From assembly GCA_947460235.1 (NCBI GenBank), contig CANHGK010000010.1, positions 1-64,000 on the forward strand: a DNA stretch of 64,000 bases, read 5' to 3'. This stretch comes from Paenibacillaceae bacterium. GTDB taxonomy: Bacteria; Bacillota; Bacilli; Paenibacillales; CANHGK01. The notes under the pieces are model-generated. The model did no database searches, was not told the DNA's origin, and was given only the letters and a program-made list of their open reading frames with translations. Both the position numbers and the translations under genes were made by a program. Shown piece after piece: positions 1,014 through 20,105 of the stretch; the first letter of the stretch is position 1, and each line of letters starts with the position of its first letter.

Positions 1014-2078
1014 ATGTCAAAATGTCGCGTTGCGATCATTGGTATGGGCAAAATGGGCAAAATCCGCTATCAGTCGCTTGAGCAACATGGCGGATTTGAT
1101 ATTGTTGCGATTTGTGATGTGAATTCGGCGATTGCGGAAGCGTATCCGAAAGCAACATGTTATTCGAAGTGGCAGGACATTCTCGCGTTGGAATTAGACG
1201 CTGTGTTTGTATGCACATTTAATGATGTGATCTGTGAGATCGTATGTGCGAGTCTGGACCGCGGATTTCATGTGTTTAGTGAAAAACCACCAGGTCGCAA
1301 TGTTGCGGATGTGTCGAGAATGATGGAAGCGAATGATCGGAATCCGCAGTGCAAGGTGAAATTTGGGTTTAATCATCGCTTACACTATGGTGTAATGGAA
1401 GCGAAAGCGTTAATTGATAGCAAGCGATATGGCGAATTGATGTGGGCGCGCGGGGTGTATGGCAAAGCGGGCGGTCAACAATTCGGTTCAGATTGGCGCG
1501 CAAATCCATCAAAAGCGGGCGGGGGGATTTTACTCGATCAAGGCATTCACATGCTTGATCTGCTTTTGTATTTTGTTGGAGATTTTGTTGAAGTCAAAAG
1601 CATGGTGGAGAATGCTTATTGGTCAGATGTCCGATTAGAAGACAATGCATTCGCACTCATGCGAACGGAGACTGGAAAAGTCGCAATGATGCATTCCAGT
1701 GCGACGCAGTGGAAGCATAAATTTTCACTTGAGTTATTTATGAAAGAAGGATATATCATTGTAAATGGTATTTTGTCTTCGACGCGAAGTTATGGCGAAG
1801 AATCGGTCACATTCGCGAAAAAACAATTCGAAGACGAGACGCGTGCAGTGGGCAAACCACGAGAAGAAACAATTTATTTTGACCGTGATGACTCGTGGCG
1901 TTTGGAGATTGAAGAATTTTATGATGTGGTGACAGGCAAAAAAACAGAGTACCATGGAACGCTCGCAGATTCATTCCGTTGCATGTCACTTGTCTATCAA
2001 ATTTATGATGCCGATCCAAAAGGCTTTTGGGGTGAACAATCACAACATGACAACGCGCAGCGACATACAGGCTCGTAA
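1014..2078 (+). CDS. Gfo/Idh/MocA family NAD(P)-dependent oxidoreductase
   Basis: Residues 5-20 form a Rossmann nucleotide-binding start (VAIIGMGKMGKIR). The family's EKP signature reads SEKPPGR near residue 92, and the C-terminal half has the usual GGILLDQGIHMLDLLLY segment around residue 170-185. The Lys of EKP is the family's catalytic or substrate-positioning residue. Length (354) is normal. These enzymes oxidise or reduce sugar hydroxyls, often on nucleotide sugars. Here it sits between a methyltransferase and a Maf-like protein in a glycan operon, so a nucleotide-sugar dehydrogenase is the best guess. The exact substrate is not visible. Confidence 0.85.
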   Translation: MSKCRVAIIGMGKMGKIRYQSLEQHGGFDIVAICDVNSAIAEAYPKATCYSKWQDILALELDAVFVCTFNDVICEIVCASLDRGFHVFSEKPPGRNVADVSRMMEANDRNPQCKVKFGFNHRLHYGVMEAKALIDSKRYGELMWARGVYGKAGGQQFGSDWRANPSKAGGGILLDQGIHMLDLLLYFVGDFVEVKSMVENAYWSDVRLEDNAFALMRTETGKVAMMHSSATQWKHKFSLELFMKEGYIIVNGILSSTRSYGEESVTFAKKQFEDETRAVGKPREETIYFDRDDSWRLEIEEFYDVVTGKKTEYHGTLADSFRCMSLVYQIYDADPKGFWGEQSQHDNAQRHTGS

Positions 2079-3093
2079 CATCATCGTTTTTGGTGCAAGT
2101 ACAATTCTGAAAGAATTATTGGCATTGCCCATTGAGATCATGCTGATTTCGGATAATGATTCAAATAAGTGGGGAACGAAAATACACAATATTGATGTGG
2201 TTTCGCCAGACCAACTTAAAAGGCATCTATCCAAGGAGACATTGGTCGTTATTGCAAGCGAAAGCTATGCGGAAGCAATGAAACTGCAATTGATTGAACT
2301 CGGTTTTTCGGCGGAACATCAAATCATCAATGCATCCGTTTTAATTAGAGAATGGATTTCTGACAAACATGGCGAAGCGATGGATCGGTTGAGAAATATT
2401 CATCAGGGACAACGCGCTTTTCTCATTGGCAACGGACCAAGTTTACAGATGGCTGATTTGGATCTGCTCAAAGACGAAATTACCTTTGGATGCAACAAAA
2501 TTTATTTAGCCTATACAGAAACGACGTGGCGTCCAACGTATTATTGTGTGGAAGATAAATTGGTCGGACAATACAATGCCCCGCAAATACGGGAATTGGG
2601 TGGGGTCAAATTTTTTGCACATCCATTGATGCCGAATTTATCGCCGGATCCTTCGGCGAATTGGCTTTTCCAGCAGGGACTCGGGGAAGTTGATGGTGTA
2701 CCCGATGTGCGATTTTCGAAAGATCTTCGTGAAGGATTTTATGGCGGTTGGACCGTGATCTATTTGATGATGCAACTTGCTTGGCATATGGGGATTCGGG
2801 AATTGTATTTACTCGGTATCGATTTTCATTTTGAAATTCCGGTTGAAATGAAACCATTAATCAACGAAGCGGGTGTGACAATTCAGGGCGATGCGATTGG
2901 GAATCATTTTTCGAAACAGTATCGCAATTCCAGCGAACCTTGGTTCACTCCGGCATTACAGAAGCAGTATGAGGTTTTTAAGTATGCAAACGAAGTGTTT
3001 ACTTCTGCACAAGGTAGTATTGTGAATTGTAGTCGACGTACGAAACTGGATGTATTTCCAATTCGGTTACTGGAAGACGTCATGAATGGCTGA
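2047..3093 (+). CDS. DUF115 / Maf-like motility-accessory protein
   Basis: Start chosen at ATG 2047 because GGGGTGA lies about 10 nt upstream; it overlaps the end of the previous gene by 32 nt. The protein is about 348 residues. Residues 10-90 look like a small Rossmann domain (NIIVFGASTILKELL). Then comes the DUF115/MptE-like core with LIGNGPSLQMADLDLLKDE and FGCNKIYLAY, later LYLLGIDFHF. DUF115 proteins include Maf, needed for flagellin glycosylation with nonulosonic acids. With pseudaminic acid genes downstream and flaG at the operon end, a Maf-like role in attaching or delivering the sugar is a reasonable inference. Confidence 0.7.
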   Translation: MTTRSDIQARNIIVFGASTILKELLALPIEIMLISDNDSNKWGTKIHNIDVVSPDQLKRHLSKETLVVIASESYAEAMKLQLIELGFSAEHQIINASVLIREWISDKHGEAMDRLRNIHQGQRAFLIGNGPSLQMADLDLLKDEITFGCNKIYLAYTETTWRPTYYCVEDKLVGQYNAPQIRELGGVKFFAHPLMPNLSPDPSANWLFQQGLGEVDGVPDVRFSKDLREGFYGGWTVIYLMMQLAWHMGIRELYLLGIDFHFEIPVEMKPLINEAGVTIQGDAIGNHFSKQYRNSSEPWFTPALQKQYEVFKYANEVFTSAQGSIVNCSRRTKLDVFPIRLLEDVMNG

Positions 3094-4525: not shown

Positions 4526-5101
4526 ATGCCCAAGTATCAGTGTTTGAATGAAAATCTGTTCTTTTTTCCTCCATATCGCATCGAACCACTCCGACTTGAA
4601 GATATGCATGCTATCAAAACATGGCGAAACGCACAAATTGACGCGCTACGCCAAGTTCGTCCATTAACTGATGAAGATCAGCAAACATATTATGCTGAAA
4701 TGGTTACGAGAAGTTTTGCCGAACCAAAACCAAGAATTATTTTATTTAGTTTTCTGTTGGGCGATCAATGCATCGGTTACGGTGGGTTGACGAATATCGA
4801 TTGGGATGCAGCGCGCGCAGAGTTATCGTTTTTGCTTGACCCAGAGCGTACAAGGGATCACAATGCATACGCAAGCGATTTTTCAGCATTTATAACATTG
4901 GTCAAAGAAGTAGCCTTTGAACAGTTGCGCTTCCATCGATTGTTTACGGAGACGTATGACCTACGTCCGTGGCATGTTCGTGTGTTAGCGCAAAGCGGCT
5001 TTGAATTTGAGGGCCGGATGCGAGATCATGTGAAAATCAACGGTCGATGGGTAGACTCGTTGTTACACGGTTGTGTAAGGGGGAGTGATGGACATGTTTG
5101 A
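4526..5101 (+). CDS. GNAT-family N-acetyltransferase, candidate PseH role
   Basis: A 191-residue RimJ/RimL-type GNAT protein. YRIEPLRLEDMHAIKTWRN at residues 12-31 is the usual N-terminal start, and the C-terminal EFEGRMRDHVKINGRWVDSLLHG is a hallmark of GNATs found beside NeuB/PseI genes. GGAGG stands 8 nt before the ATG. In pseudaminic acid synthesis PseH acetylates the 4-amino sugar made by PseC. This protein is the only free-standing GNAT in the operon, so it is a candidate for that step, but it belongs to a different GNAT branch from the Campylobacter enzyme as I remember it. Confidence 0.75.
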   Translation: MPKYQCLNENLFFFPPYRIEPLRLEDMHAIKTWRNAQIDALRQVRPLTDEDQQTYYAEMVTRSFAEPKPRIILFSFLLGDQCIGYGGLTNIDWDAARAELSFLLDPERTRDHNAYASDFSAFITLVKEVAFEQLRFHRLFTETYDLRPWHVRVLAQSGFEFEGRMRDHVKINGRWVDSLLHGCVRGSDGHV

Positions 5102-7007: not shown

Positions 7008-7030
7008 CCAAGCGCGGAAGGAGCCAGGGT

Positions 7031-7720
7031 ATGCCAATTGTTGTTTTTGATATGGATGATACATTGTATGTTGAAACAACATATGTACAAAGTGGATTTC
7101 AAGCCGTGTGCACCTGGTTAACGGAAGCCTTTGGAATTGATTCGCGGGATGCATTACGTGTGATGAATGCTGTGCTACATGCGGAGGGACGCGGAAAGGT
7201 ATTCGATCGCGTATTAACGGAATATGGATTATTCAATCGAACAAACGTACGAAAATGTTTAACCGCGTATCGATTACACCAACCACAGATTGTTCTGGAC
7301 GAGGCAACATTACCTTGTTTTGAACGATTGCGAGTAGAATTCCCACTTTATCTTGTGACCGATGGGAATAAAATTGTTCAAGCAAATAAAGTTGCGGCGC
7401 TCGGACTCGATGAGTGGATGCGCTTCTGTTATATTACACATCGTTATGGCCGATATCATAGTAAGCCTTCCCCGTACGTTTTTCATAAAATTTGCGCAAG
7501 GGAACAGGTTGCGCCGCAAGATGTTATTTACGTAGGTGACAATCCGCACAAAGATTTCATTGGCATCAAAAAAGAGGGATTTCGCACGGTGCGAATTATG
7601 CGTGGTGCTTTTAAAGATGTTGAATTGCGCGAGGAATATGAAGCAGACATTCGAATTGATTCGCTTGATGAATTAACAGTACCATTCATTGAACAATTAA
7701 CTGGACGGGGGAACATGTAA
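7031..7720 (+). CDS. HAD-superfamily phosphatase
   Basis: A 229-residue HAD hydrolase of the IA type. Motif I is VFDMDDTLY at residues 4-12, motif II is the Thr in LVTDGN (about 112), motif III the Lys in SKPSPYVF (about 146), and motif IV is YVGDNPHKDFIG (about 170). The alpha-helical cap lies between motifs I and II. AAGGAG stands 8 nt before the ATG, and the stop overlaps the start of the synthase gene (TAATG). In nonulosonic acid clusters such phosphatases may remove the 9-phosphate or act on a precursor; the pseudaminic route itself does not need it, so its substrate is uncertain. Confidence 0.8.
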   Translation: MPIVVFDMDDTLYVETTYVQSGFQAVCTWLTEAFGIDSRDALRVMNAVLHAEGRGKVFDRVLTEYGLFNRTNVRKCLTAYRLHQPQIVLDEATLPCFERLRVEFPLYLVTDGNKIVQANKVAALGLDEWMRFCYITHRYGRYHSKPSPYVFHKICAREQVAPQDVIYVGDNPHKDFIGIKKEGFRTVRIMRGAFKDVELREEYEADIRIDSLDELTVPFIEQLTGRGNM

Positions 7721-8769
7721 TGCATACTTTTCAAGTCGAACACTATCGTATCGGTGCAGATGCCCGTCCATTCATCATTGCTGAAATGTCTGGCAATCAT
7801 AATCAGTCATTAGAACGAGCACTCGCGATTGTGGAAGCGGCGGCTAATTCGGGCGCGCATGCCTTGAAAATCCAAACATACACCGCGGATACGATGACAA
7901 TCGATATTCGTGATCGGGAATTTTACATTGATGACGATAAGAGCCTTTGGAAAGGCAATTCATTATATGAGTTATATCAACATGCCTATACACCGTGGGA
8001 ATGGCACAAGCCCATTTTTGATCGTTGCAAAGAATTAGGCATGATCGGATTTAGTACGCCGTTTGATGCAACGGCAGTTGATTTTTTGGAATCGCTCGAA
8101 GTTCCAATGTACAAAATCGCCTCGTTTGAGAATACGGATATTCCGCTGATCCGTAAAGTTGCTCAAACAGGCAAACCGGTCATTATTTCAACGGGAATGG
8201 CTACCGCAGCGGAATTGGATGACACGGTTCGTACTCTTCGCTCCAATGGTTGTGAACAATTTGTGTTGCTCAAATGCACGTCGACGTATCCTTCAACACC
8301 GACAGATAGCAATATTGCAACGATTCCGCATCTGCGCGGATTGTTTCAATGTCAAATTGGATTGTCCGACCATACGATGGGCGTCGGGGTTTCCGTTGCA
8401 AGTGTGGCTTTGGGGGCTACGGTCGTGGAAAAGCATTTTACCCTTCGCCGAGCAGATGGTGGTGTCGATTCCGCATTTTCCATGGAACCAGAAGAATTTG
8501 CACAATTAGTCATCGAGACCGAACGTGCTTGGCAATCCATTGGCGGCATTCAATATGGACCGACTGAACGCGAGAAAAAATCGTTGGAACATCGCCGCTC
8601 ATTATATGCAGTTCAAGATATTGCTGAGGGTGAAGAGATTACATCTGAGAATGTTCGGGCCATTCGTCCGGGATTGGGCCTGGCACCAAAGTATTTTGAT
8701 CAACTGCTAGGTAAACGATCTCGTCAAGCCGTCAAAAAAGGAACGCCGATGAGTTGGGAACTGATTTAA
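7720..8769 (+). CDS. pseI: Pseudaminic acid synthase (NeuB family)
   Basis: Condenses a 2,4-diacetamido-trideoxy hexose with phosphoenolpyruvate to give a nonulosonic acid. FIIAEMSGNHNQSLERAL, then HALKIQTYTADTMT and SLYELYQHAYTPWEWH, are the pattern I associate with PseI rather than NeuB or LegI. The barrel covers about residues 1-285, with the metal-binding DHTMG segment and EKHFTLRR, and an antifreeze-like SAF domain fills the last 60 residues (SLYAVQDIAEGEEIT onward). Length 349 is usual. The start overlaps the stop of the HAD gene by one base, so translation is probably coupled. A legionaminic acid synthase cannot be fully excluded without alignment. Confidence 0.88.
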   Translation: MHTFQVEHYRIGADARPFIIAEMSGNHNQSLERALAIVEAAANSGAHALKIQTYTADTMTIDIRDREFYIDDDKSLWKGNSLYELYQHAYTPWEWHKPIFDRCKELGMIGFSTPFDATAVDFLESLEVPMYKIASFENTDIPLIRKVAQTGKPVIISTGMATAAELDDTVRTLRSNGCEQFVLLKCTSTYPSTPTDSNIATIPHLRGLFQCQIGLSDHTMGVGVSVASVALGATVVEKHFTLRRADGGVDSAFSMEPEEFAQLVIETERAWQSIGGIQYGPTEREKKSLEHRRSLYAVQDIAEGEEITSENVRAIRPGLGLAPKYFDQLLGKRSRQAVKKGTPMSWELI

Positions 8770-8805: not shown

Positions 8806-9537
8806 ATGGCAGGAAATTGGATCATCATTCAAGCGCGGATGAGTTCGACGAGATTACCAGGCAAAGTGTTGCTACCGCTTGGCGGGTTGACGTCACTTGA
8901 ATATGTCGTTCGGCGATGTCAAAACGTACCTTCTGCAGCGGGTGTCATGGTAGCGACAACCATTCATTCTGAAGATGATGCCATTGAAGTGTGGTGTGAT
9001 TCGAGAAATGTCCGGTGTGTTCGTGGCAGTAAGGATGATGTATTATCGCGTTATCTTTTGGCTGCGAAAACGGTGGACCCAGAATATATCATTCGTGTGA
9101 CGAGTGACTGTCCGTTTATTTCATATGAATTATTAGAGACTGGATTACTTCTTGCTGCGGATAAAAAACCTGATGTTGTTCGTTGGCGGATGACGTCACC
9201 GGTTTCTAGGGGGATTTTGCCGGAGATTATCAAAGCTTCTGTACTTCGCGATTCGGAGGAAATTGCCCAGTTGGAACGATTCCGTGAACATGTCACGTTG
9301 TATATTTGGGAGCAGTTACAAAATTATGCGGTGGAGGATGTTTATCTTCCGAGCGAATTGCTTCTAGGTGAATACCGAATCACGTTGGACGAGCCGGATG
9401 ATTATCGATTGTTATGTACAATCGCGGACTATTTTAAGGGAAATCTTGATGTTCCAACTGCCGAGGTCATTCGTTACTTAAAGGAACATCCACAGATTGC
9501 ATTGATGAATGCGCATGTTCAGCAAAAAATGCCGTAA
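8806..9537 (+). CDS. CMP-sugar cytidylyltransferase, SpsF/PseF-like
   Basis: A 243-residue nucleotidyltransferase of the SpsF / CMP-KDO synthetase group. IIQARMSSTRLPGKVL (residues 6-21) is the CTP-binding signature, DDVLSRYLLAA and IIRVTSDCPFIS are the next conserved strands, and YRITLDEPDDYRL closes the catalytic domain. In the pseudaminic pathway PseF activates the acid with CTP. Placement right after the synthase gene supports that role. AAGAAGG lies just upstream of the ATG. Confidence 0.8.
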   Translation: MAGNWIIIQARMSSTRLPGKVLLPLGGLTSLEYVVRRCQNVPSAAGVMVATTIHSEDDAIEVWCDSRNVRCVRGSKDDVLSRYLLAAKTVDPEYIIRVTSDCPFISYELLETGLLLAADKKPDVVRWRMTSPVSRGILPEIIKASVLRDSEEIAQLERFREHVTLYIWEQLQNYAVEDVYLPSELLLGEYRITLDEPDDYRLLCTIADYFKGNLDVPTAEVIRYLKEHPQIALMNAHVQQKMP

Positions 9538-9569: not shown

Positions 9570-10520
9570 ATGAACATTCTTTTAACGGGTGGCGCTGGAT
9601 TTATTGGACGTTGGGTTTTGCATCAATTGCTACTTGAGGGTCATCAAGTCGTCGTTTTCGATGATTTTTCGAACGGGCGAGAAGAAAATATTGCCGAGTT
9701 TGCCAATCATTCTGGATTGCGAACCGTGATTCGCGGGGATGTGAAAGATGCTGCATTGGTGCAGGATCTTTTTTCCGTTTATCAATTTGAAAAATGTTTT
9801 CATTTAGGTGCATCGATTAATGTACAGGATTCGATCGACGATCCAAAAACGACCTTTGATAATGATACCGTTGGAACATTTGTTATCCTAGAAGCATGCC
9901 GAAAGGCGAACACCAAAGTTATATTTATGAGCACCTGCATGGTGTATGACCGATGTGCAGATGAACAAGGGATTACAGAAGTACATCCAACGAAACCGGC
10001 ATCTCCTTACGCAGGTGCAAAAATTGCTGCAGAAAATATGGTGCTTTCCTATTATTATGCCTATGGATTGCCAACGGTGGTCGTGCGACCATTTAATACG
10101 TACGGCCCGTATCAAAAATCGGGCGGCGAAGGCGGCGTTGTGGCGATTTTTATCAAACGAAGTTTACAAAACATGCCGCTGAATATTTACGGAGACGGCA
10201 CGCAAACGCGCGATTTATTGTATGTTGAAGATTGTGCTCGTTTCGTTGTAGATGCAGGCTTTTCAGATCGAGTAAACGGTCAGATCGTAAATGCGGGATT
10301 GGGTGAAGACATTGCGGTTAATCAGCTTGCGGAATTGATTAGCGCAGGCCGATCGGAAATTCGTCATGTAGAACACATTCATCCCCAAAGCGAAATTATG
10401 AAACTCAAATGCAACTTTTCGAAAGCCCAAACGCTATTAGATTGGGCTCCTCAAATAAGCCTACAAGAAGGAATTGCAAAAACAGAGGAGTGGATCGCAA
10501 AGGCAGGCGATCTCATTTGA
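9570..10520 (+). CDS. NAD-dependent sugar epimerase/dehydratase (SDR)
   Basis: Start taken at ATG 9570, 5 nt after GGGTGG; GTG 9561 and ATG 9567 are alternatives. MNILLTGGAGFIGRWV is the NAD-binding motif. FHLGASINVQDS and FMSTCMVYD follow, and the catalytic YxxxK is intact in SPYAGAKIAAE. The residues after the catalytic Thr are CM rather than the Asp-Glu pair of 4,6-dehydratases, so an epimerase is more likely than a dehydratase. VRPFNTYGPYQ and RDLLYVEDC are also typical. It acts on a nucleotide sugar for the glycan. It does not look like PseB, the inverting dehydratase that starts the pseudaminic route. Confidence 0.83.
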   Translation: MNILLTGGAGFIGRWVLHQLLLEGHQVVVFDDFSNGREENIAEFANHSGLRTVIRGDVKDAALVQDLFSVYQFEKCFHLGASINVQDSIDDPKTTFDNDTVGTFVILEACRKANTKVIFMSTCMVYDRCADEQGITEVHPTKPASPYAGAKIAAENMVLSYYYAYGLPTVVVRPFNTYGPYQKSGGEGGVVAIFIKRSLQNMPLNIYGDGTQTRDLLYVEDCARFVVDAGFSDRVNGQIVNAGLGEDIAVNQLAELISAGRSEIRHVEHIHPQSEIMKLKCNFSKAQTLLDWAPQISLQEGIAKTEEWIAKAGDLI

Positions 10521-12550
10521 ATAAATATGATCATTTAAAGAAATTATATCTAGAAATTGAACGACAGATATCAAATGGTGCGATCGAATCCGCAGGAAAG
10601 TCGCTTGAAGCATTTGCTGCAATCACAGATGGTGCCGTTGAATCAAGTATTCGGGCGAATCTACTGACTGCTCAACATAAACTTGAACAGGCGGCTGTTG
10701 TTTTGCAAAAAGCGATCATCCGGTATCCCTTTCATGTAGACATAAATATTAATTTGGGCATTGTGTATGAATTAAGTGGCAAACCATTAGATGCCACTTA
10801 TTATTTTGCGCGTGCAAAAAAAGTTGCGACGACAAAAGAGGATATCGAATTTTGCGAACAATCGATTCAGAAAAATAGAAATACATATCTTGAAGTACAC
10901 AAACAAGATCAACTCAATTTACAAAAATATAATGAAATGCTTAAAACGGTTGACGATTTACTCAATGAATCAGATGACCGGAATTTTCCGTTAGACCGAC
11001 AAAATAAAAGTTTAATCCGTAAATCGATTCGCGAAAACGGACAATTATTTAAGTTTGTGAATTTGTACCAGCCGTTTAACATCATTGATATTGATGAAAA
11101 CAACCGCGTTTTTCATAAAACAGAAATTTATGAAGGATTCCGTGCGACGGATGTGACAATTGGGATTCCGCAAGAAGTGATTATTCCGATATCCATTATC
11201 GATGATTTATGCCAAATCAAAATTTCTGATCAGCAAGATCAAATGCATTTTGCATACGACGAAATTGATGCCAACCATTTTGTGATGTTACGTGTACCCC
11301 CTACGCAAAAGTTACAAATTCAATCTGCGAAACCAATCTTTATTGGAAAGCCAATTCCCGTAAGGGATCAGGCGGTCGGACCAAGGCTAGTCTTACAAAT
11401 TTTTGTGGACGGGTTGTCGGCCGCATTCCTCAAAAAAGAAGGTTTTGAACAATTGATGCCCAATACTGCGCGTATGTTCAGTGAAGGAACCGTTTTTATG
11501 AACGGTTATGCGACGGGAGATTGGACCCTTCCAAGTCAAGCTTCCATTTGCACGGGAAAATATACTTCGAATCATGGATTGTTTCATCCACGCAATCGAG
11601 ATGATCATTTTGAGGATCGAAACAAATTCGTTGGAGAATACATGCAGCAGGCGGGGTACTTTAGCGGGCGAATATGTAGTTGCTGGCGGATGACACCGAC
11701 TTATGGTTTTCATAAGGGACATGATCGGTTTGTTTATAAAAATTTTCTTGGTGGAATGGATTCAAAAGAAGTCGTCAGTGAAGCGATCGAACATTTGGAA
11801 ACATTTCGACACAAACAAAATTATTTGTGGCTTACCCTTGAGGATTTGCATCATGTGGCCGATCAAATTGATGATAAATTGTTTAGTCAATCCGAATTGG
11901 TTTGGACGAAGCGCAAAAAAAACAACTCCGGCCAGAAAAGTGTATTTAAGTCATATCACCCGGAAATGATCGAGCGTTACCAGATTGAACTACACCGAGT
12001 TGATGTGTATCTCGGCGTGTTATTTGATTATGTCCAAAAACACTATGGAAAAGACGAGTTACTAATCGTACTTCAATCGGATCACGGCCAAACGTTTTTG
12101 GAGGAATCACCACATCCGAACCATGAGAGCAGACGGAACGTACCGATCCTGTTCTATGGAAGAGATATTCCTGCACGAAATGCTGACGAAATCATAGAGA
12201 ATGTAGATATATTACCTGCGATGATGCATCTTTTGAATAAACCGATTGTTGAACCGATCGATGGCAAGGTACCATTTGCGTTTGGTGGCAATAAAGCTCG
12301 AACGTACTCATATTCTGAAGTCCTTTATCCAGGGCAACCCTATCGTGCGGCGTTGTCGGATCGTACACATACATTTTATTTTGAATCGGTGTTACCCGTT
12401 GGGCATGATGGTTTGGTAGATTTTTCGAAATTCACCTATGAATTTATCAATTTTGCGAGTGGAAATGACGAAAAAGAATTATACACAGAAATATGTACGG
12501 AACGGCTTGAGGCGATTTTTGCGCATATGAAACGACGGTTTCGTTTTTAA
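10517..12550 (+). CDS. Alkaline-phosphatase/sulfatase superfamily protein with TPR-like N-terminus
   Basis: Start chosen at TTG 10517, overlapping the previous stop by 4 nt; an in-frame ATG lies at 10409 inside the epimerase gene. The protein is about 677 residues. Residues 1-130 are helical and TPR-like (NLGIVYELSGKPLDATYYFARAKK). From about residue 290 there is a metal-dependent phosphatase/sulfatase fold: LQIFVDGLS has the first Asp, TLPSQASICTG places a Thr where sulfatases have Cys, and SDHGQTF is the third metal site. The Thr nucleophile points to a phospho-transferase or phosphodiesterase, as in phosphoethanolamine or phosphoglycerol transferases, rather than a classical sulfatase. No membrane segment is evident, so it is probably cytoplasmic. 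Confidence 0.7.
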   Translation: MNKYDHLKKLYLEIERQISNGAIESAGKSLEAFAAITDGAVESSIRANLLTAQHKLEQAAVVLQKAIIRYPFHVDININLGIVYELSGKPLDATYYFARAKKVATTKEDIEFCEQSIQKNRNTYLEVHKQDQLNLQKYNEMLKTVDDLLNESDDRNFPLDRQNKSLIRKSIRENGQLFKFVNLYQPFNIIDIDENNRVFHKTEIYEGFRATDVTIGIPQEVIIPISIIDDLCQIKISDQQDQMHFAYDEIDANHFVMLRVPPTQKLQIQSAKPIFIGKPIPVRDQAVGPRLVLQIFVDGLSAAFLKKEGFEQLMPNTARMFSEGTVFMNGYATGDWTLPSQASICTGKYTSNHGLFHPRNRDDHFEDRNKFVGEYMQQAGYFSGRICSCWRMTPTYGFHKGHDRFVYKNFLGGMDSKEVVSEAIEHLETFRHKQNYLWLTLEDLHHVADQIDDKLFSQSELVWTKRKKNNSGQKSVFKSYHPEMIERYQIELHRVDVYLGVLFDYVQKHYGKDELLIVLQSDHGQTFLEESPHPNHESRRNVPILFYGRDIPARNADEIIENVDILPAMMHLLNKPIVEPIDGKVPFAFGGNKARTYSYSEVLYPGQPYRAALSDRTHTFYFESVLPVGHDGLVDFSKFTYEFINFASGNDEKELYTEICTERLEAIFAHMKRRFRF

Positions 12551-12572
12551 GATCAATTAAGGAGGGATTACG

Positions 12573-13097
12573 ATGGCTGACGCATTCACGATGTTGTTGA
12601 CAGGACTTAGCGGAGCAGGAAAAACGACAAATGCCAAAATGATTGTCACAGAATTGCAAAATCGAGGGATTCAAGTTGAATTACTTGACGGTGATGTCGT
12701 TCGAGATGAAATTGGTAATTTGTTTGGTTATACACGTGAGGAGCGTAACAAAGTCAGCAAAATCCATCGTTTTCTTGCCAAAATGTTAAATCGAAACGGA
12801 ATTTCAGTGATTGTTGCAGCGATATCGCCATACGAAGAAATGCGTGAAAGTTACCGAAACGAAATTAAAAATTATGTTGAAGTCTATGTGGAGTGTCCGA
12901 TTGAAGTGTGTATTGAGCGCGATGTAAAAGGAATCTATCAAAAGGCAATTCGCGGCGAAATGAAACATGTCATTGGGATCGATGAGTCATTCGAAGTGCC
13001 TCAAAACCCAGATATTGTTGTGAACACTTCCGCAGCTACAACTGAAGAAAATATGATCCAAATCATCGAAGCGCTAAAGGAAAAACAGTTTGCTTAA
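12573..13097 (+). CDS. APS kinase-like P-loop kinase (CysC family)
   Basis: A 174-residue kinase of the adenylylsulfate kinase family. GLSGAGKTT (residues 10-18) is the P-loop, LLDGDVVRDEIG matches the family's LDGDN(I/V)R strand, and RDVKGIYQKAIRGEMK with IGIDESFEVPQNPDI matches the C-terminal lid. The helix that in APS kinases reads ENxRR, contacting the APS adenine, reads NKVSKI here, so substrate may differ. No ATP sulfurylase or sulfotransferase is in the window. AAGGAGGG precedes the ATG. Either it makes PAPS for a sulfated glycan, or it phosphorylates another substrate for the neighbouring phosphatase-fold protein; the sequence does not decide. Confidence 0.75.
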   Translation: MADAFTMLLTGLSGAGKTTNAKMIVTELQNRGIQVELLDGDVVRDEIGNLFGYTREERNKVSKIHRFLAKMLNRNGISVIVAAISPYEEMRESYRNEIKNYVEVYVECPIEVCIERDVKGIYQKAIRGEMKHVIGIDESFEVPQNPDIVVNTSAATTEENMIQIIEALKEKQFA

Positions 13098-13114: not shown

Positions 13115-13801
13115 ATGCAACGTGAACACGAGAACCACTTAAAGGATGCCGAAGCAACGAGACAATATTGGAATGCATTTTATACTGGGCATGACATCCA
13201 TGAGGCGTCTCCTTTTTTTCATGTCGTGCAGCGTGCGTTTTCTCATGATTTTTTGGTGGTGGATGTTGGTTGTGGGTCTGGCCGAGATGCATTTTCATTT
13301 GCAACGAGTGGATATGAGGTTTGTGCGTTTGATCAGTCGGAAACGGTGATCAGTAAAAATAATGATAAAATTGTAAGCTTGGCAAGCAATGATGTGCAAC
13401 TATCTTTTGAAGTGATCGATTTGTCGGATCCGGTTGAGTTGCAACGTTTTTTTGCGCGAGTTCGATTGCAAGCGACTGTTAAGAAAAAATATCTACTTAT
13501 TTATATGCGTTTTTTATTACATGCCATTGATGAGTCCACACAACAGATCTTATTTGATGTACTTTCGCAGGAATTAGTAACCGGTGATGGCATGGCCATG
13601 GAATTTCGCACAATCGAAGACCAGTTTTTAAATAAAACGTATCAGAACCATTTCAGAAGGTTCATCGATTCAGAGAAATTGGTCGATGAAATGAACATTC
13701 AACATAGAATGGACGTATTCCATTTTGTAAAGGGAACCGGGTATTCGAAATATAACGATGAAGATCCCTATTTAGCGCAATTATTAATGATCAAAAAATA
13801 G
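13115..13801 (+). CDS. Class I SAM-dependent methyltransferase
   Basis: A 228-residue methyltransferase with a clear motif I, LVVDVGCGSGRDAFSFA, at residues 47-63, and the acidic end of strand 2 in VCAFDQSE. The region YLLIYMRFLLHAID corresponds to strand 4. RBS GGGGG stands 9 nt before the ATG. It sits between the APS kinase-like gene and the DUF4910 gene. In the similar Campylobacter gene block a methyltransferase accompanies the DUF4910 and FkbH-type genes, where the flagellin sugar carries a di-O-methylglyceric acid; an O-methylating role here is an inference from that arrangement. Confidence 0.82.
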   Translation: MQREHENHLKDAEATRQYWNAFYTGHDIHEASPFFHVVQRAFSHDFLVVDVGCGSGRDAFSFATSGYEVCAFDQSETVISKNNDKIVSLASNDVQLSFEVIDLSDPVELQRFFARVRLQATVKKKYLLIYMRFLLHAIDESTQQILFDVLSQELVTGDGMAMEFRTIEDQFLNKTYQNHFRRFIDSEKLVDEMNIQHRMDVFHFVKGTGYSKYNDEDPYLAQLLMIKK

Positions 13802-13828
13802 TCGGTTTGGCGTAAGGTGGTGATCATT

Positions 13829-15097
13829 TTGGAAATTGAAGATTCACTATATCAATATATCGAGCGATTGGTACCCATACCACGAAGTATTACAGGAAAT
13901 GGGGTGCGTCAAACATTAGACATCCTCAGCGAAATTGTTCCAATCGTTCAACACGAAGTGCCTAGTGGGACCGAAGCTTTTGATTGGAACATTCCAAAAG
14001 AATGGAATGTTAACGATGCGTATATTATTACTCCTGATGGTCGGAAGATCGCTGATTTTCATGTAAATCCTTTGCATTTGGTTGGGTATTCACCGCCAAT
14101 GCGACAAAAAATGTCGTTAGCTACATTGCAGAAACATCTTTATTCATTACCGCAGCAACCGAGTGCAATTCCATACATTACTTCCTATTATGAGGAACGT
14201 TGGGGATTTTGTTTGACTCAACAAGAACGGGATCACTTGGCGGATGGTGAGTATGAAGTTGTCATTGACAGCAATTTGCATGACGGATCAATGACTTATG
14301 GCGAATTAATAGTGCCTGGAGAAACGGATGAGGAGATTATGTTTACTTCTTATGTGTGTCATCCATACATGGCTAATAATGAATTGTCCGGTCCAGTTAT
14401 GAATGCACATATTGCAGCTTACATACTGGAGCAACCGAAAAGAAAATATACGTACCGTTTTTTGTGGTTGCCGGAGACGGTAGGTGCAATTCTGTATTTA
14501 TCAAAACATCTGGCGTATTTAAAACAGAAAGTCATTGCGGGTTTTGTGTTAAGTTGTATTGGAGATGAACGTGCGTTTTCCGTCGTTCAATCACGACTCG
14601 GAAATTCGTATGCGGATCGTGTGGTAAATGTGGTAATGCAGTTTTTTTATTCAGAATGTAAATTTTATAGTTTTTTAGATCGTGGTAGTGATGAACGGCA
14701 ATTTTGTGCACCGGGTGTTGATTTGCCTTTTGTAACACTCTGCAGATCTAAATTCGGAGAATATCCTGAATACCATACATCGCTAGATAATCTAGACATC
14801 ATCAGTAAAAATGGATTAGGACAAAGCTATGACTGGATTCTGCGATTATATCGATTAATCGAAAACAATAACAAATACTGTGTCACTCATTTTTGTGAAC
14901 CGAATTTAGGCAAACGGGGATTATATGACACGTTAAGCAGCAAGGGGTTGTCTGCGATGTCCAGACATATCCGAAATGTACTTGCTTATTGTGACGGTAA
15001 TCATGACGTAATTGATATTAGTTACAGAGTAAAATTGTCACCAGATAAAACGATGCAGTTCCTCGAAATTCTGAAACAACATAATCTTATTCATTAA
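13829..15097 (+). CDS. DUF4910 / DUF2172 aminopeptidase-like protein
   Basis: Start taken at TTG 13829 because AAGGTGG ends 8 nt before it; GTGs at 13817 and 13820 are alternatives. The protein has about 422 residues. RLVPIPRSITGNGVRQTL at the start and GELIVPGETDEEI followed by VCHPYMANNELSGP around residue 185 are the DUF4910 family pattern, an M28-peptidase-like fold. It ends with a winged-helix-like stretch (SYRVKLSPDKTMQFLEIL). Members occur in glycan loci. Campylobacter jejuni Cj1295 belongs to this family and was linked to di-O-methylglyceroyl modification of pseudaminic acid. The reaction itself is not known to me. Confidence 0.82.
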   Translation: MEIEDSLYQYIERLVPIPRSITGNGVRQTLDILSEIVPIVQHEVPSGTEAFDWNIPKEWNVNDAYIITPDGRKIADFHVNPLHLVGYSPPMRQKMSLATLQKHLYSLPQQPSAIPYITSYYEERWGFCLTQQERDHLADGEYEVVIDSNLHDGSMTYGELIVPGETDEEIMFTSYVCHPYMANNELSGPVMNAHIAAYILEQPKRKYTYRFLWLPETVGAILYLSKHLAYLKQKVIAGFVLSCIGDERAFSVVQSRLGNSYADRVVNVVMQFFYSECKFYSFLDRGSDERQFCAPGVDLPFVTLCRSKFGEYPEYHTSLDNLDIISKNGLGQSYDWILRLYRLIENNNKYCVTHFCEPNLGKRGLYDTLSSKGLSAMSRHIRNVLAYCDGNHDVIDISYRVKLSPDKTMQFLEILKQHNLIH

Positions 15098-15116
15098 CCA
15101 AACGGAGATGATGGCG

Positions 15117-16895
15117 ATGTTCGGAGACGGACCACTTTCGTTAAGCGAAGTTACGAAACGATATCGTCAATTAAATATAAATGTGAGCAATCCAACCAGA
15201 ACGGTGGTGAGGATTGCTTTGCTGTCTAATTTTACGATTCGCGGCATGGCGGAAGCGCTGACGGTAGCCTTTAACGAGCACGGGATCGTCGCAGATGTGT
15301 GGACATGTCCATACGCGCAGCAAGAGCAATACGTTTATGATGCGAAAAGCGAATTATATACGAGGGAACCCCAGGTCATCATTGTGTTGAACGATATTGA
15401 GAAATGGTTCGGTCTACACGAGGTTTTAACCGAGACACTAACGTTCCGTGATGCGTTACAAACGCGCTCAGAGATCATTTCAAACCAACTACACGCACTA
15501 TTACAAACACTGTTGAGTCGATCAAAAGCAAATGTCTACTGGTCAGGCTTTGATTGGTATGAGAACGGAATGAATGGAATGTTAGCGGATCAAAAGGGCG
15601 TTTCATTGTTGACGCAAATGATCACGAAGATGAACGCTGACATTGTCGGTGCGTTTGGATCTGAACGTCAATTTTATTATTTCGATTTTCCAGCATTCGC
15701 GCGTGAAATCGGTCAACAACAACTGTATGACTTGCGATTACGCCAATTGGCGGATCTGTGTATCAGTCCCGAATGGTTTTATGCGTTAGGTCATGCATTC
15801 GTGCGAAGCATGTATCCACTGATTAAATCGCCTTCAAAGTGTATTGTCCTAGATTTGGACCATACGATCTGGGGCGGTGTACTTGGCGAGGACGGGTTTG
15901 AAGGAATTCGTATGGGGCAGCGCGGCGACGGATGGGCATTTTGGATGTTTCAACATGGGTTGAAGTTATTGAAATCTCGCGGTTTTTTGCTTTCTATCGT
16001 GAGTAGAAACGAGCTTGCTGATGTTGAACATGTGTTGCGCGCACATTCGGATGCGGTTTTGAAATATGAAGATTTTGTAGCAATTCGGTGCAATTGGGAG
16101 CGAAAGTCGGGAAATATTCGTTCCATCGCTGACGAATTAAATATCGGATTAGATGCACTGATTTTTTTCGATGATGATCCCGTGAATCGTGCAGAAGTTC
16201 GATCTGCCGTACCGGAAGTCATCGTTCCAGAATTATCGCTAGAACCATTGGAATACCACCAACTTCTTCGAAAACTGCCATCACTTCAAGTCTATGAGAT
16301 CACGGAAGAAGATTCGAAGCGAACACAAATGTATCTCGAGCAGCGGAAGCGGAGCGATGCGAAGTCGAGTTTCGAAAGTTTGGATGCCTATTTGCAAAGT
16401 TTGAAGTTGGAAGTGTTAATTGACACATGGCAACAAGGAGATTTAAAACGCTTAGAACAGCTTTTTCAGCGCACGAATCAATTTAATACGACCCATATTC
16501 GATTAACACAGCAACAGTTGCTGGAGTATCGTGAACGGTCAGATGTTTGGTGTCGTATTGTTCGAATTAATGATCGATTTGGTGATCATGGGGATTCGGG
16601 CGCGGTAATCGTATATAAGGTCGCGGATCAATGGGTGATTGAAATGTTTTTATTAAGTTGTCGTGTGCTTGGCCGCGGCATAGAAGATGCAGTCATTGCG
16701 ACGGTCGCGAAGAATGCCGCTAGCGCGGGTGCAAGAAAAATTATTGTTAAATATACCGAGCATCCGAAAAATACACCGGTAAAACAATGGTTAGCAGCTT
16801 CGCCGTTTTTGCCTACGCAAGACGGCTATGCATTTGATTTGGTAAAGGAATATCCCTATAAAATGTTTATACAAATAAAGGAGTCTTTGGGATGA
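15117..16895 (+). CDS. FkbH-type HAD IIIC protein (glyceryl-ACP loading)
   Basis: A protein of about 592 residues. The N-terminal 230 residues are the FkbH-associated domain (RIALLSNFTIRGMAEAL). The HAD IIIC core begins at CIVLDLDHTIWGGVLGEDG, the family's DxDxT motif, and continues with SIVSRNE and FFDDDPVNRAEV. A GNAT-like C-terminal domain has FGDHGDSGAV and FLLSCRVLGRGIE. FkbH enzymes take 1,3-bisphosphoglycerate, remove phosphate and load D-glycerate on a carrier protein thiol. The carrier gene follows with a 4-nt overlap, so the pair is very probably functional. Start is ATG 15117, after CGGAGATG; ATG 15108 and 15111 also exist. Confidence 0.9.
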   Translation: MFGDGPLSLSEVTKRYRQLNINVSNPTRTVVRIALLSNFTIRGMAEALTVAFNEHGIVADVWTCPYAQQEQYVYDAKSELYTREPQVIIVLNDIEKWFGLHEVLTETLTFRDALQTRSEIISNQLHALLQTLLSRSKANVYWSGFDWYENGMNGMLADQKGVSLLTQMITKMNADIVGAFGSERQFYYFDFPAFAREIGQQQLYDLRLRQLADLCISPEWFYALGHAFVRSMYPLIKSPSKCIVLDLDHTIWGGVLGEDGFEGIRMGQRGDGWAFWMFQHGLKLLKSRGFLLSIVSRNELADVEHVLRAHSDAVLKYEDFVAIRCNWERKSGNIRSIADELNIGLDALIFFDDDPVNRAEVRSAVPEVIVPELSLEPLEYHQLLRKLPSLQVYEITEEDSKRTQMYLEQRKRSDAKSSFESLDAYLQSLKLEVLIDTWQQGDLKRLEQLFQRTNQFNTTHIRLTQQQLLEYRERSDVWCRIVRINDRFGDHGDSGAVIVYKVADQWVIEMFLLSCRVLGRGIEDAVIATVAKNAASAGARKIIVKYTEHPKNTPVKQWLAASPFLPTQDGYAFDLVKEYPYKMFIQIKESLG

Positions 16896-17131
16896 CGGAA
16901 CTTTTTGCATTGATACAGGCTCACATGGCAGATGTCCTTCAGGTAGAGCCCGAATTGATTCGTTTGGCTACTCGTAGAGATGCGCTCGCAGAATGGGATT
17001 CATTCAATCACTTGATGCTAATGATGGAATTGGAAAAACGCATGAATATTGCATTTCGTACAGAGGAAATTCAGGCAGTTCATACGGTCGCGGATTTGCT
17101 AAAGGTGGTTGAAGAAGCGAAAGGGAGATGA
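16892..17131 (+). CDS. Acyl carrier protein
   Basis: A 79-residue carrier protein. The phosphopantetheine site is the Ser in EWDSFNHLMLMMELEK (Ser 37), a DSF variant of the usual DSL. The helix pattern and the acidic recognition helix fit the family. Its ATG lies inside the last codons of the FkbH-type gene (ATGA overlap) and the MaoC/AAC(3) fusion begins 6 nt after its stop, so it is a dedicated carrier of this operon rather than the fatty acid ACP. Confidence 0.92.
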   Translation: MTELFALIQAHMADVLQVEPELIRLATRRDALAEWDSFNHLMLMMELEKRMNIAFRTEEIQAVHTVADLLKVVEEAKGR

Positions 17132-17137
17132 TGGTGT

Positions 17138-18340
17138 ATGGCATACTCTATTGAACAATTGACACCTGGCGTCTCTGAATCATTTCATGTAGCTATTACA
17201 GAAGAATTGCACCATCGATTTGGCATTTTGTCAGGAGACTTGAGTCCAATTCATCAATTGGACGAATTCAGCATACATTATGGGTTTCAAGGCAAAATTG
17301 GCTATGGATTTTTTCTGGGTACTTTATTGTCCCGCATGTATGGGATGCATTTGCCTGGGGGCACGTCAATCTGTATGCAACAGGACTTAAAATATAAGTT
17401 GCCTTATTATGTCGGCGATACACTACAGGTGAATTCGACCGTGAAAAGTGTATCGGAAGCGGCGAAAATGGTACAGATTACGACGGTAATTACTCGTCAA
17501 AACGGAGATGTTGTGCTCGAAGCGACGGGTTGGGTGAAAATTTCGTTTGAAGCAAATCATTGTGTTCCACTTTTTGAACATGATGGACAAGAGGTTTATG
17601 CATTTCATTTTGAACAAGCACTGCGTGAGTTAGGAGTGCAAACAGGCGACGATTTATACATCCATAGCGATATCACGTCATTTGGCAAATTAAAGTGTTT
17701 GGATCGAAAGACATTATTCGGTGCACTTGTAAATGCCATGCGAGACGTGACCGGTTCGACAGGCTCACTCATCGTCCCAACGTTTACCTATGATTTTTGT
17801 CAGAGCGGTATTTTTGATTTGATCAAATCAAAATCAGAAGTTGGTGTTTTCTCTGAATTTATAAGGACGTTGCCGAATGCGGTCAGAACCGATCATCCAA
17901 TTTTTTCACATGCGATTTTATCTGAGCAACCGGAGCAATATTGTGAAATAAATGCAGATAGTTTTGGTGATGACTCGCTGTTCGCAAAATTAGTCAAGCG
18001 AAAGGCGAAGATTCTATTTTTAGGAACTTCGTTTGATCGTGCTACACTAATCCATCATGCAGAACAACAAATTGGTGTTCCGTATCGCTATATTAAAAAA
18101 TTTGATGGTATTCTTCGTAAACACGGTGAAGAGTATCCGGTTGAATCGACGTATTATGTTCGCGATCTAAACGTAAATCCAACACTTACCATGGCACCAT
18201 TTACAGCGCACATGAAAGATTTAGCGCTTTTGAAAGAAATAAAAATTGGCGCTGGCAAGTTGTTGCTGATCAATGCGGACGATTTTGTGAATCGAGCAAT
18301 TGAGCAGATCCAATTGAATCCATATTATTTTGTAAAATAG
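17138..18340 (+). CDS. MaoC-like hydratase and AAC(3)-family N-acyltransferase fusion
   Basis: A 400-residue two-domain protein. Residues 1-140 are a hot-dog MaoC domain: GILSGDLSPIHQLDEFS keeps the Asp and His of the hydratase-2 motif, and GKIGYGFFLG follows. Residues 148-400 are an aminoglycoside 3-N-acetyltransferase-type domain, with LIVPTFTYDF, RTDHPIFSHA and LGTSFDRATLIHHAE carrying the family's conserved His residues. AAC(3)-type enzymes acylate amines. Directly after an acyl carrier protein gene, it probably moves an ACP-bound acyl group onto an amino sugar. The MaoC part may bind or trim the ACP-bound acyl chain. This fusion is unusual in my experience. It is not evidence of antibiotic resistance. 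Confidence 0.82.
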   Translation: MAYSIEQLTPGVSESFHVAITEELHHRFGILSGDLSPIHQLDEFSIHYGFQGKIGYGFFLGTLLSRMYGMHLPGGTSICMQQDLKYKLPYYVGDTLQVNSTVKSVSEAAKMVQITTVITRQNGDVVLEATGWVKISFEANHCVPLFEHDGQEVYAFHFEQALRELGVQTGDDLYIHSDITSFGKLKCLDRKTLFGALVNAMRDVTGSTGSLIVPTFTYDFCQSGIFDLIKSKSEVGVFSEFIRTLPNAVRTDHPIFSHAILSEQPEQYCEINADSFGDDSLFAKLVKRKAKILFLGTSFDRATLIHHAEQQIGVPYRYIKKFDGILRKHGEEYPVESTYYVRDLNVNPTLTMAPFTAHMKDLALLKEIKIGAGKLLLINADDFVNRAIEQIQLNPYYFVK

Positions 18341-18360: not shown

Positions 18361-19551
18361 ATGAAAAAGCTAGCGGTTCATGGGGGCACGCCGGTGCGTT
18401 CGTCAATGCTTCCATATGCCACGCAATCCATTGATGATTCCGATGTGGCAATTGTTTCGCAAGTCATGAGAAGTTCATATTTAACGCAAGGACCTTGGGT
18501 TGAAAAGTTTGAACAGGCAATTTGTGATCGAGTTGGTGCCAACTATGCGGTGGCGTTTTCTAGTGGAACAGCGGCATTGCACGGTGCTTATCAGGTAGCG
18601 GGGCTCGGACCTGGGGACAAAATGATCACTTCACCAATTACGTTTGTCGCGACATCAAACGCCGCTTTTTATACGGGTGCAAGTCCTGATTTCGCGGATA
18701 TTGATCCGAATACCTATTTGCTTGATCCGACATGTGTGAAGTCAGGGATGAGCGACAATGTTAAATTAATCGCGCCAGTGGATTTTACCGGACAACCAGC
18801 ACCGATTGATCAGTTTAAAAGCATTCTTGGTGAAGAACGTCCCGTGATTTTGCAAGATGCTGCGCATTCACTAGGTGCAATTGACCAAGGTCGGCCTGTC
18901 GGGAAAATTGCAGATATGACGATGTTTAGCTTTCATCCGGTCAAACAAGTTACAACCGGTGAAGGTGGAATGATTGTAACGGATAACGCCGACTACGCGA
19001 AAGCATTGGTTGATTTTCGGAGCCATGGAATCACGCGCGATTCAAAGCGACTGATCGAAAATCATGGGCCGTGGTATTATGAGATGCAATCACTTGGATA
19101 CCATTATCGGATGACCGATCTTCAAGCGGCACTCGGTTGCAATCAACTGCTGCGATTAGATGAATTTTTGTTTCGTCGCCGTATGATTGCATCTACTTAT
19201 CAGCAAGCATTTGCGAATTTACCCGGCATCCAGATCCCGACCATTCGGGAGGGCGCCGAATCAGCTTGGCATTTGTACGTCATTCAATGGCGAGTCGGTG
19301 CGTTCCGTGTTTCGCGAAAAGAACTTTTTGAGGCGATGCGTGCCGAAAATATCGGAGTACATGTTCATTATATCCCGGTCCACCACCAACCTTATTATCA
19401 AAAAAACGGCTTTGCAGGAAAAACATATGAACGTGCTGAATCTTATTATTTGCAGGCGATGACATTGCCTTTATTTCCAGCAATGACAGATCAAGATGTT
19501 ACTGACGTGATTGATGCGATTCATAAAGTTTACAACATGCATGTGATATAG
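18361..19551 (+). CDS. pseC: Nucleotide-sugar aminotransferase, PseC-like (DegT/DnrJ/EryC1)
   Basis: A PLP-dependent aminotransferase of 396 residues. YLTQGPWVEKFE, AVAFSSGTAALHGAY and ITSPITFVATSNAAFYTGA are the pattern of UDP-4-amino-4,6-dideoxy-L-altrosamine aminotransferases. ILQDAAHSLGA gives the PLP Asp, and the PLP Lys is the one in FSFHPVKQVTTGEGG. HVHYIPVHHQPYY near residue 340 is also typical. In the pathway PseC aminates the product of PseB, before PseH. It is the last gene of the operon, 132 nt before the FlaG start. Confidence 0.87.
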   Translation: MKKLAVHGGTPVRSSMLPYATQSIDDSDVAIVSQVMRSSYLTQGPWVEKFEQAICDRVGANYAVAFSSGTAALHGAYQVAGLGPGDKMITSPITFVATSNAAFYTGASPDFADIDPNTYLLDPTCVKSGMSDNVKLIAPVDFTGQPAPIDQFKSILGEERPVILQDAAHSLGAIDQGRPVGKIADMTMFSFHPVKQVTTGEGGMIVTDNADYAKALVDFRSHGITRDSKRLIENHGPWYYEMQSLGYHYRMTDLQAALGCNQLLRLDEFLFRRRMIASTYQQAFANLPGIQIPTIREGAESAWHLYVIQWRVGAFRVSRKELFEAMRAENIGVHVHYIPVHHQPYYQKNGFAGKTYERAESYYLQAMTLPLFPAMTDQDVTDVIDAIHKVYNMHVI

Positions 19552-19590
19552 AAAATTTGAAATAAATTTAGAAAAAATTTAAATTGCTAT

Positions 19591-19617
19591 TAATTTTTCA
19601 GATAACAAAGCCGATAA
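19591..19617 (+). promoter_or_regulatory. Sigma-D (sigma-28) type promoter for flaG
   Basis: TAAT at 19591-19594, 15 nt, then GCCGATAA at 19610-19617. The Bacillus sigma-D consensus is TAAA-N15-GCCGATAT, so 3 of 4 and 7 of 8 bases match with exact spacing. Transcription would start near 19624, about 60 nt before the flaG ATG. Confidence 0.8.
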
Positions 19618-19682
19618 TAGAAATAGGGTCTATTTATTTAATGGACAAATCAGAACGGCTTATTTTTTTGGAGGTGATTGAA

Positions 19683-20105
19683 ATGGCTGATTTTCAATCG
19701 ATATCTAATAACGCATATACAAATGCAATGAACAATCGCGACGTTTCTCAAAACGTTGAGCGAGTAAAAAAAGAAGTTGAAGCGATGATGGTTGGATCGG
19801 CAGAACCGGCGGTTGTACAGCCTGTTGCTCAGCCTGTTGCTCAAAATAAAATGGAACAAAAATCGGAAAAAACTTCTTTTGGAGAAGAACAATTGGTGCG
19901 TGCGATTCAACATGCGTTGAAATCTATGGAGGGAAAATCTACGCATTTACAATTTTCTGTTCATGAAAAAACAAAGCAGATTATGGTGAAAGTGTTGGAT
20001 AATGAATCGGGAAAAGTTGTTAGAGAAATTCCTTCAGAGAAGACATTTGATTTTCTTGCGAAAGTCTGGGAAATGACGGGATTGTTAATTGACGAGAAAC
20101 GTTAA
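19683..20105 (+). CDS. flaG: Flagellar protein FlaG
   Basis: Start is ATG 19683 behind the strong site GGAGGTGAT at 19670-19678. The protein has 140 residues. Residues 1-70 are low in order and include a VQPVAQPVAQ repeat. Residues about 75-140 form the FlaG domain: LQFSVHEKTKQIMVKVLD, then VVREIPSEKTFDFLAKVWEMTGLLIDEKR. FlaG is linked to flagellin filament length and usually lies between the flagellin gene and fliD. Here fliD and fliS do not follow. A sigma-D promoter precedes the gene, and a strong terminator follows it, so it can be expressed alone with the late flagellar genes. Confidence 0.93.
   Translation: MADFQSISNNAYTNAMNNRDVSQNVERVKKEVEAMMVGSAEPAVVQPVAQPVAQNKMEQKSEKTSFGEEQLVRAIQHALKSMEGKSTHLQFSVHEKTKQIMVKVLDNESGKVVREIPSEKTFDFLAKVWEMTGLLIDEKR

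Follow-up and report, generated by a model that had tools for sequence, protein, structure and literature searches.

We have identified, in a 64,000-nucleotide stretch of contig CANHGK010000010.1 from a Paenibacillaceae bacterium (hereafter the window), a five-gene operon at 13115-18340 that, judging from its gene families and surroundings, probably makes a small hydroxyacyl amide and installs it on a pseudaminic-acid-type sugar bound for flagellin. Five open reading frames lie head to tail on the + strand and encode, in this order, a methyltransferase, a DUF4910 protein, a long FkbH-type enzyme, a carrier protein and a MaoC-AAC(3) fusion. The spacing from the APS-kinase-like gene (12573) through flaG (19584) is 17, 15, 10, -4, 6, 20 and 32 bp, where 15, 10, -4 and 6 bp are the distances within the set and 17 and 20 bp those to its flanking genes. 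The pseI gene lies upstream of the set, and pseC and then flaG lie downstream. The first-pass annotation had named these five consecutive genes and their families, and all open reading frames, coordinates and family assignments were confirmed; those of the methyltransferase, which scores near the cut-off, and of the carrier protein are the least certain.

Direct observations comprise the genes present, their tight arrangement, the conserved residues, the recurrence in other genomes and the alternative fusions. Conserved synteny and independent fusions support the view that these genes form a functional set belonging with nonulosonate and flagellar loci. On the one hand, this agrees with the first-pass annotation, which had predicted from the set a glyceryl amide on an amino sugar. 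On the other hand, an intact glyceryl amide has become less certain, because MaoC proved to be a recurrent partner of FkbH.

Recurrence and alternative fusions of the set

Relatives were sought by FkbH, DUF4910 and AAC(3) searches. The combination of DUF4910, AAC(3), acyl carrier protein (ACP) and FkbH was found beside maf, flagellin or pse genes in two further divergent lineages of the same phylum. In one of them (L053), the order is flagellin, methyltransferase, AAC(3), DUF4910, FkbH, ACP, glyoxalase and Maf, and the locus also holds a complete pse set (PseI/H/G/F/C/B) and FlaG. In the other (L155), FliS and two Maf genes are followed by FkbH, ACP, AAC(3), DUF4910 and chemotaxis (che) genes; its AAC(3) is the nearest relative of the window AAC(3), with 36% identity (E 6e-53). 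In these divergent flagellar loci the identity is 52% for DUF4910 and only about 33% for FkbH, indicating that the association is old. Of 399 genomes of the phylum, only 6 had a DUF4910 match reaching E 1e-60, and considering this rarity, the repeated co-location of DUF4910 with rare partners is not due to chance. The methyltransferase is not constant, since none was detected beside the L155 set and that of L053 differs in size.

In Maritalea myrionectae and Sinorhizobium sp. RAC02, AAC(3) is fused to FkbH, and this gene is followed by a MaoC-SDR fusion with a C-terminal ACP region and then by DUF4910, with NeuB nearby and, in Maritalea, PseB as well. The ACP region was recognised in Maritalea by a tblastn match and a GWDSL motif, and in Sinorhizobium it was deduced from the length of the protein. 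Agrobacterium salinitolerans carries pseBCFGIH together with AAC(3) and DUF4910; in this cluster (L186:6980-10260) an IS3 transposase gene lies between AAC(3) and DUF4910, and the AAC(3) gene looks short. A metagenome-assembled genome of Planctomycetota (L132) has unfused ACP, AAC(3), MaoC, methyltransferase and FkbH genes in succession in a NeuB/aminotransferase nonulosonate locus without DUF4910, where the amine may come directly from the aminotransferase. Overall, PseI/NeuB, PseB or Maf accompanies the set in L053, L155, L132, L183, L185 and L186. Because the fusions are independent and differ from each other, they indicate, by Rosetta-stone reasoning, that the parts form one unit.

No further MaoC-AAC(3) fusion was found among about 800 genome draws, which comprised two partly overlapping samples at order and phylum level, and a scan of named genomes with the fusion protein returned no relative. 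The fusion thus seems peculiar to this genome. The locus had been regarded as an undescribed version of a known system with a fused hydratase; this stands for the fusion, which is seen only here, but the set also occurs elsewhere, both in alphaproteobacteria and in further lineages of the phylum, and the hydratase is not an odd addition.

Parts of the operon and proposed pathway

The features of the operon and its setting are collected in Table 1.

Table 1. Positions of the operon genes, their domains and associated genes in the window
Feature	Coordinates	Strand	Evidence
MptE/Maf-like protein	1954..3093	+	PF01973 36.0 bits, cut-off 34.6
PseI pseudaminic acid synthase	7720..8769	+	TIGR03586 506 bits, cut-off 340
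CTP-dependent cytidylyltransferase, probable CMP-nonulosonate synthetase	8806..9537	+	PF02348; NCBIfam: weak KDO-type matches only
SAM-dependent methyltransferase, 228 aa	13115..13801	+	class I; PF13649 28.1 bits (cut-off 27), PF08242; weak matches
DUF4910/DUF2172 aminopeptidase-like protein, C-terminal winged helix (HTH_47)	13817..15097	+	PF16254 319 bits, cut-off 26.6
Long FkbH-type enzyme (FkbH_N + HAD-IIIC)	15108..16895	+	TIGR01686 280.8 bits, cut-off 146.65; PF21211
Stand-alone acyl carrier protein, 79 aa	16892..17131	+	phosphopantetheine serine Ser37 (nt 17000); overlaps FkbH by 4 bp
MaoC hydratase/dehydratase domain, about residues 1-145	17138..17572	+	PF01575 30.6 bits, cut-off 27
AAC(3)/Antibiotic_NAT acyltransferase domain, about residues 146-400	17573..18340	+	PF02522 116 bits, cut-off 25
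PseC aminotransferase, next operon gene	18361..19551	+	TIGR03588 466.5 bits, cut-off 423.5
FlaG	19584..20105	+	PF03646

The DUF4910 protein matches a 'putative peptidase' (PDB 3k9t) at 5.7e-109, and its motifs CHP(x)nNNELSG, PET and YHTS are kept in relatives; it is a candidate N-deacylase that would expose an amine. NNELSG was considered as a marker of acyl-cassette DUF4910 proteins and rejected, as it is common to all ten DUF4910 loci checked. The FkbH-type enzyme carries DLDHTIWGG, the HAD motif, starting at residue 249 and SCRVLGRG starting at residue 517, matches BF1531 (PDB 3slr), and is a candidate loader of a three-carbon acyl group on the ACP. The carrier protein reached a best E of 4e-7 with the NCBIfam ACP models, which is under their cut-off (30 vs 66), and had no Pfam match; the serine of its WDSF motif is present, and it aligned with four other FkbH-linked ACPs. 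MaoC and AAC(3) form a single open frame of 400 aa (17138-18340), in which both domains score above the Pfam cut-off. The MaoC dyad Asp34/His39 is intact within SGDLSPIH, a motif common to FkbH-linked MaoCs, and the domain aligns with PhaJ (1iq6) at E 3.5e-12. In the AAC(3) domain, HHAE (306-309) is conserved, and the domain aligns with its relatives and with solved AAC(3) enzymes, including 5ht0. The methyltransferase is a candidate O-methylase of the acyl group or the sugar, between which the sequence does not discriminate.

From these parts we infer each chemical step of a pathway, as well as the acyl identity and the acceptor position. FkbH would dephosphorylate a phosphorylated three-carbon acid and load it on the phosphopantetheine of the ACP, giving glyceryl-S-ACP; characterised FkbHs use 1,3-bisphosphoglycerate. 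The MaoC domain may then act on the thioester, and on chemical grounds loss of the 3-hydroxyl group would give 2-hydroxyacryloyl/pyruvoyl-ACP, which a reductase (SDR) could turn into lactoyl-ACP. Since no ketosynthase gene is present, the three-carbon acyl group is the only evident MaoC substrate. The methyltransferase may O-methylate, which is the weakest step of the pathway. Meanwhile, the DUF4910 protein, as a metallo-aminopeptidase-like hydrolase, would remove an existing N-acyl (acetyl) group from the sugar, at C5 in Campylobacter, and the AAC(3) domain would move the acyl group from the ACP onto the freed amine. The fusion would keep processing and transfer on one protein, and PseI, the cytidylyltransferase and the Maf proteins would bring the sugar to flagellin.

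Directly before the set, the same operon encodes a TPR-sulfatase-family protein (713 aa) and the APS-kinase-like protein (10409-13097), a pair that suggests a further glycan modification of sulfate or phosphate type. Downstream of the flagellar locus (22810-27318), a secreted-looking protein of 1502 aa contains many repeats of about 85-90 residues.

The acyl group and its loader

An FkbH-alignment scan of named genomes gave at least 80 FkbH loci, and the MaoC counts refer to those listed. Among the matches listed, 23 MaoC genes were found in 80 FkbH loci, all on the FkbH strand and 21 of the 23 within 1 kb; the binomial probability of this closeness against uniform placement is about 3e-16, which is a guide only, as the loci are not independent. 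DUF4910 was found in none of the 80 FkbH loci among the matches listed. The MaoC-bearing loci, in which FkbH-ACP-MaoC is the usual order, include some from Thaumarchaeota, Bacteroidota, Verrucomicrobiota and Alphaproteobacteria, and several of these MaoCs adjoin or are fused to SDR reductases. This recurrence rejects MaoC as a chance fusion. FkbH-ACP-MaoC triplets were seen in L067, L069, L070, L073, L074, L091, L098 and L124 (Thaumarchaeota, Verrucomicrobiota, Ignavibacteria and Flavobacterium), and that of L124 is followed by SDR and MBOAT genes. In the literature we found no publication on such triplets and none joining FkbH, MaoC and an acyl carrier protein.

Accordingly, instead of an intact glyceryl group, the acyl may be pyruvoyl or lactoyl. 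A version of our interpretation with another product follows, in which MaoC makes pyruvoyl-ACP and the amide is N-pyruvoyl, or N-lactoyl or 2-methoxypropionyl after reduction and methylation. Same-strand MaoC genes less than 1 kb from FkbH in 21 of the 80 loci listed, the usual gene order, the frequent adjacent or fused SDR and the intact Asp/His dyad favor such a product, and the chemistry parallels the lactyl starters proposed for some FkbH polyketide loading modules. However, no SDR lies beside the set in the window, L053 and L155 carry the module without MaoC near FkbH, and the known Campylobacter product retains both glycerate oxygens. We therefore consider a non-glyceryl product a serious possibility, a little short of an even chance. 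Because of the missing SDR and the two modules with no MaoC near FkbH, we keep a glyceryl-derived acyl group as our claim, within which glyceryl, pyruvoyl and lactoyl are all left open.

The loader itself can be exchanged. L060 and L157 combine DUF4910, AAC(3) and ACP with an AMP-ligase in place of FkbH, and in a Paenibacillus-like genome (L061:8537-12268) FabH replaces FkbH in the order DUF4910-AAC(3)-ACP-FabH, with a possible transposase fragment nearby. Thus, hydrolase, acyltransferase and carrier stay constant, whereas the enzyme that charges the carrier changes. Since the loader varies while AAC(3) and ACP are kept, the use of acyl-ACP by AAC(3) is supported. The same logic of amide formation from ACP to the amine of an amino sugar is found in butirosin BtrI/BtrH, which differ in their unrelated acyltransferase family and their antibiotic pathway. 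We give an even chance to the broader proposal that DUF4910, AAC(3) and ACP act across bacteria as a portable, general module for exchanging the N-acyl group of nonulosonic acids. Such a module would strip the native N-acyl group and install whichever acid a swappable loader (FkbH, AMP-ligase or FabH) puts on the carrier, with MaoC/SDR as optional tailoring and the unassigned genes Cj1296-Cj1304 as the Campylobacter version.

The acceptor sugar and related systems

In the same genome, contig C2 carries four main flagellins, FliD, FliS, a Maf protein of 651 aa and a PseB-like gene, followed by a long glycan cluster to the contig end. This best PseB candidate, beside Maf and the flagellins, scored 334.6 bits against a cut-off of 407.75. 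The end of C2 falls inside the glycan cluster downstream of these genes, and the window, whose first base is also that of its own contig, C10, opens in the middle of another. The two ends are probably parts of a single flagellar glycosylation island that closes with PseC-FlaG. At 5085-7720, beside PseI, lie an epimerase-ATP-grasp fusion (640 aa) and a HAD-IA hydrolase, for which non-orthologous replacement of PseG is possible. A relative of the epimerase-ATP-grasp fusion with 50% identity was seen in another pse/flagellar locus (L160), and a HAD-IA hydrolase is likewise present in subgroup ID of the Aeromonas islands, in which PseG is lacking (PMC7874193).

Several points weigh against our interpretation. 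No PseG was found above the cut-off in the host genome (99.2% complete), and family models recognised neither PseH nor PseF; the nonulosonate may therefore be a sugar other than pseudaminic acid. Since PseG was not found, the sugar is best called pseudaminic-acid-type (Pse-like), not proven pseudaminic acid. The hydrolytic role of DUF4910 is not certain, because NNELSG stands where 3k9t has NDNLSG, with Asn in place of the presumed metal-bridging Asp of M28-like peptidases, as in 10 of the 10 DUF4910 loci checked. Our literature search found no characterised product for long FkbHs with FkbH_N, and the homology to the Campylobacter genes rests on published annotation.

The device could instead acylate another amino sugar of the flagellar glycan. 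Both contigs hold large mixed glycan clusters with other sugar pathways, aminotransferases and glycosyltransferases, and the Pse genes are incomplete. However, pseC directly follows the set, the set recurs with nonulosonate or Maf genes in the loci given above, and the Cj1295 phenotype lies on pseudaminic acid, which makes this alternative unlikely. A role of the genes in secondary metabolism or aminoglycoside resistance, with a chance placement in the flagellar locus, is highly improbable: the names of FkbH and AAC(3) derive from such roles and AAC(3)-FkbH and MaoC-SDR-ACP fusions also occur on Erwinia/Rahnella plasmids without nonulosonate genes, but the nonulosonate context is repeated, the operon with pseC-flaG is tight, and true aminoglycoside resistance was rejected on gene context and on an AAC(3) score of 84.2 bits against 270 for the resistance equivalog NF033082. 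On the Erwinia rhapontici plasmid (L184:7890-11794) the two fusions have an aminotransferase gene and an ATP-grasp gene as neighbours, and this is the same carrier device in another pathway.

A pseudaminic-acid-type acceptor also fits the nearest known system. In Campylobacter jejuni, Cj1295 is required for 5-(2,3-di-O-methylglyceroyl)amino-pseudaminic acid on flagellin; its mutant loses the di-O-methylglyceroyl group at C5, and removal of the C5 acetyl group was proposed as the role of Cj1295 by the authors of that work (PMC3068675). Cj1296/97 are annotated AAC(3), the in-frame form being a fusion of both frames (PMC3025981), and Cj1302 has an fkbH domain, while Cj1301 is annotated epimerase (PMC7099621). 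The likeness to Cj1295-Cj1304 put forward in the first-pass annotation thus holds family by family for Cj1295, Cj1296/97 and Cj1302, on the Campylobacter side by published annotation. By that annotation both systems share a Cj1295-type aminopeptidase-like protein, AAC(3), an FkbH-domain protein and a flagellar pseudaminic acid locus; C. jejuni adds phase-variable tracts and the epimerase gene, whereas the window has MaoC fused to AAC(3), a tight operon, one methyltransferase and no PseG found. A 2026 genus-wide study of flagellar islands in Clostridium counts Cj1296-Cj1310 among the genes not involved (PMC13317340). In the literature we found no pathway description for glyceroyl-pseudaminic acid and, apart from Cj1295, no gene tied to it by mutation. 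Polyketide clusters (FK520 methoxymalonate, tetronates) share glyceryl-ACP loading by FkbH and a dedicated ACP, often with an O-methyltransferase (PMC7489565), but here FkbH is the long form with FkbH_N and the acyl group would be passed by AAC(3) to an amine and not built into a polyketide. In the available part of the Aeromonas study, group II polar flagellin islands share ACP-based acyl genes (ACP, 3-oxoacyl-ACP reductase, AMP synthetase, LuxC/LuxE) in a flagellar pseudaminic acid island; their activating enzymes differ, no FkbH, AAC(3) or DUF4910 was found there, and a pseudaminic acid derivative of unexplained 376 Da is described (PMC7874193).

In summary, the system is partly known already, and its MaoC-AAC(3) fusion version, seen in a single genome, is new. 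The analysis addresses the question of how glyceroyl and other unusual acyl groups are installed on flagellar pseudaminic acid. A concrete pathway of loader, carrier, tailoring, deacylase and transferase that can be rebuilt in vitro follows from the conserved synteny together with gene fusions of three kinds. A further module, of which we found no description in the literature, is the FkbH-ACP-MaoC(-SDR) triplet, which occurs from Thaumarchaeota to Bacteroidota. From the gene set it can be predicted in which genomes to expect novel N-acyl nonulosonates; free-living species for which no such structure has been reported are among them. As the set recurs, split or fused differently, in distant bacteria, it makes an almost unexplored sugar decoration testable.

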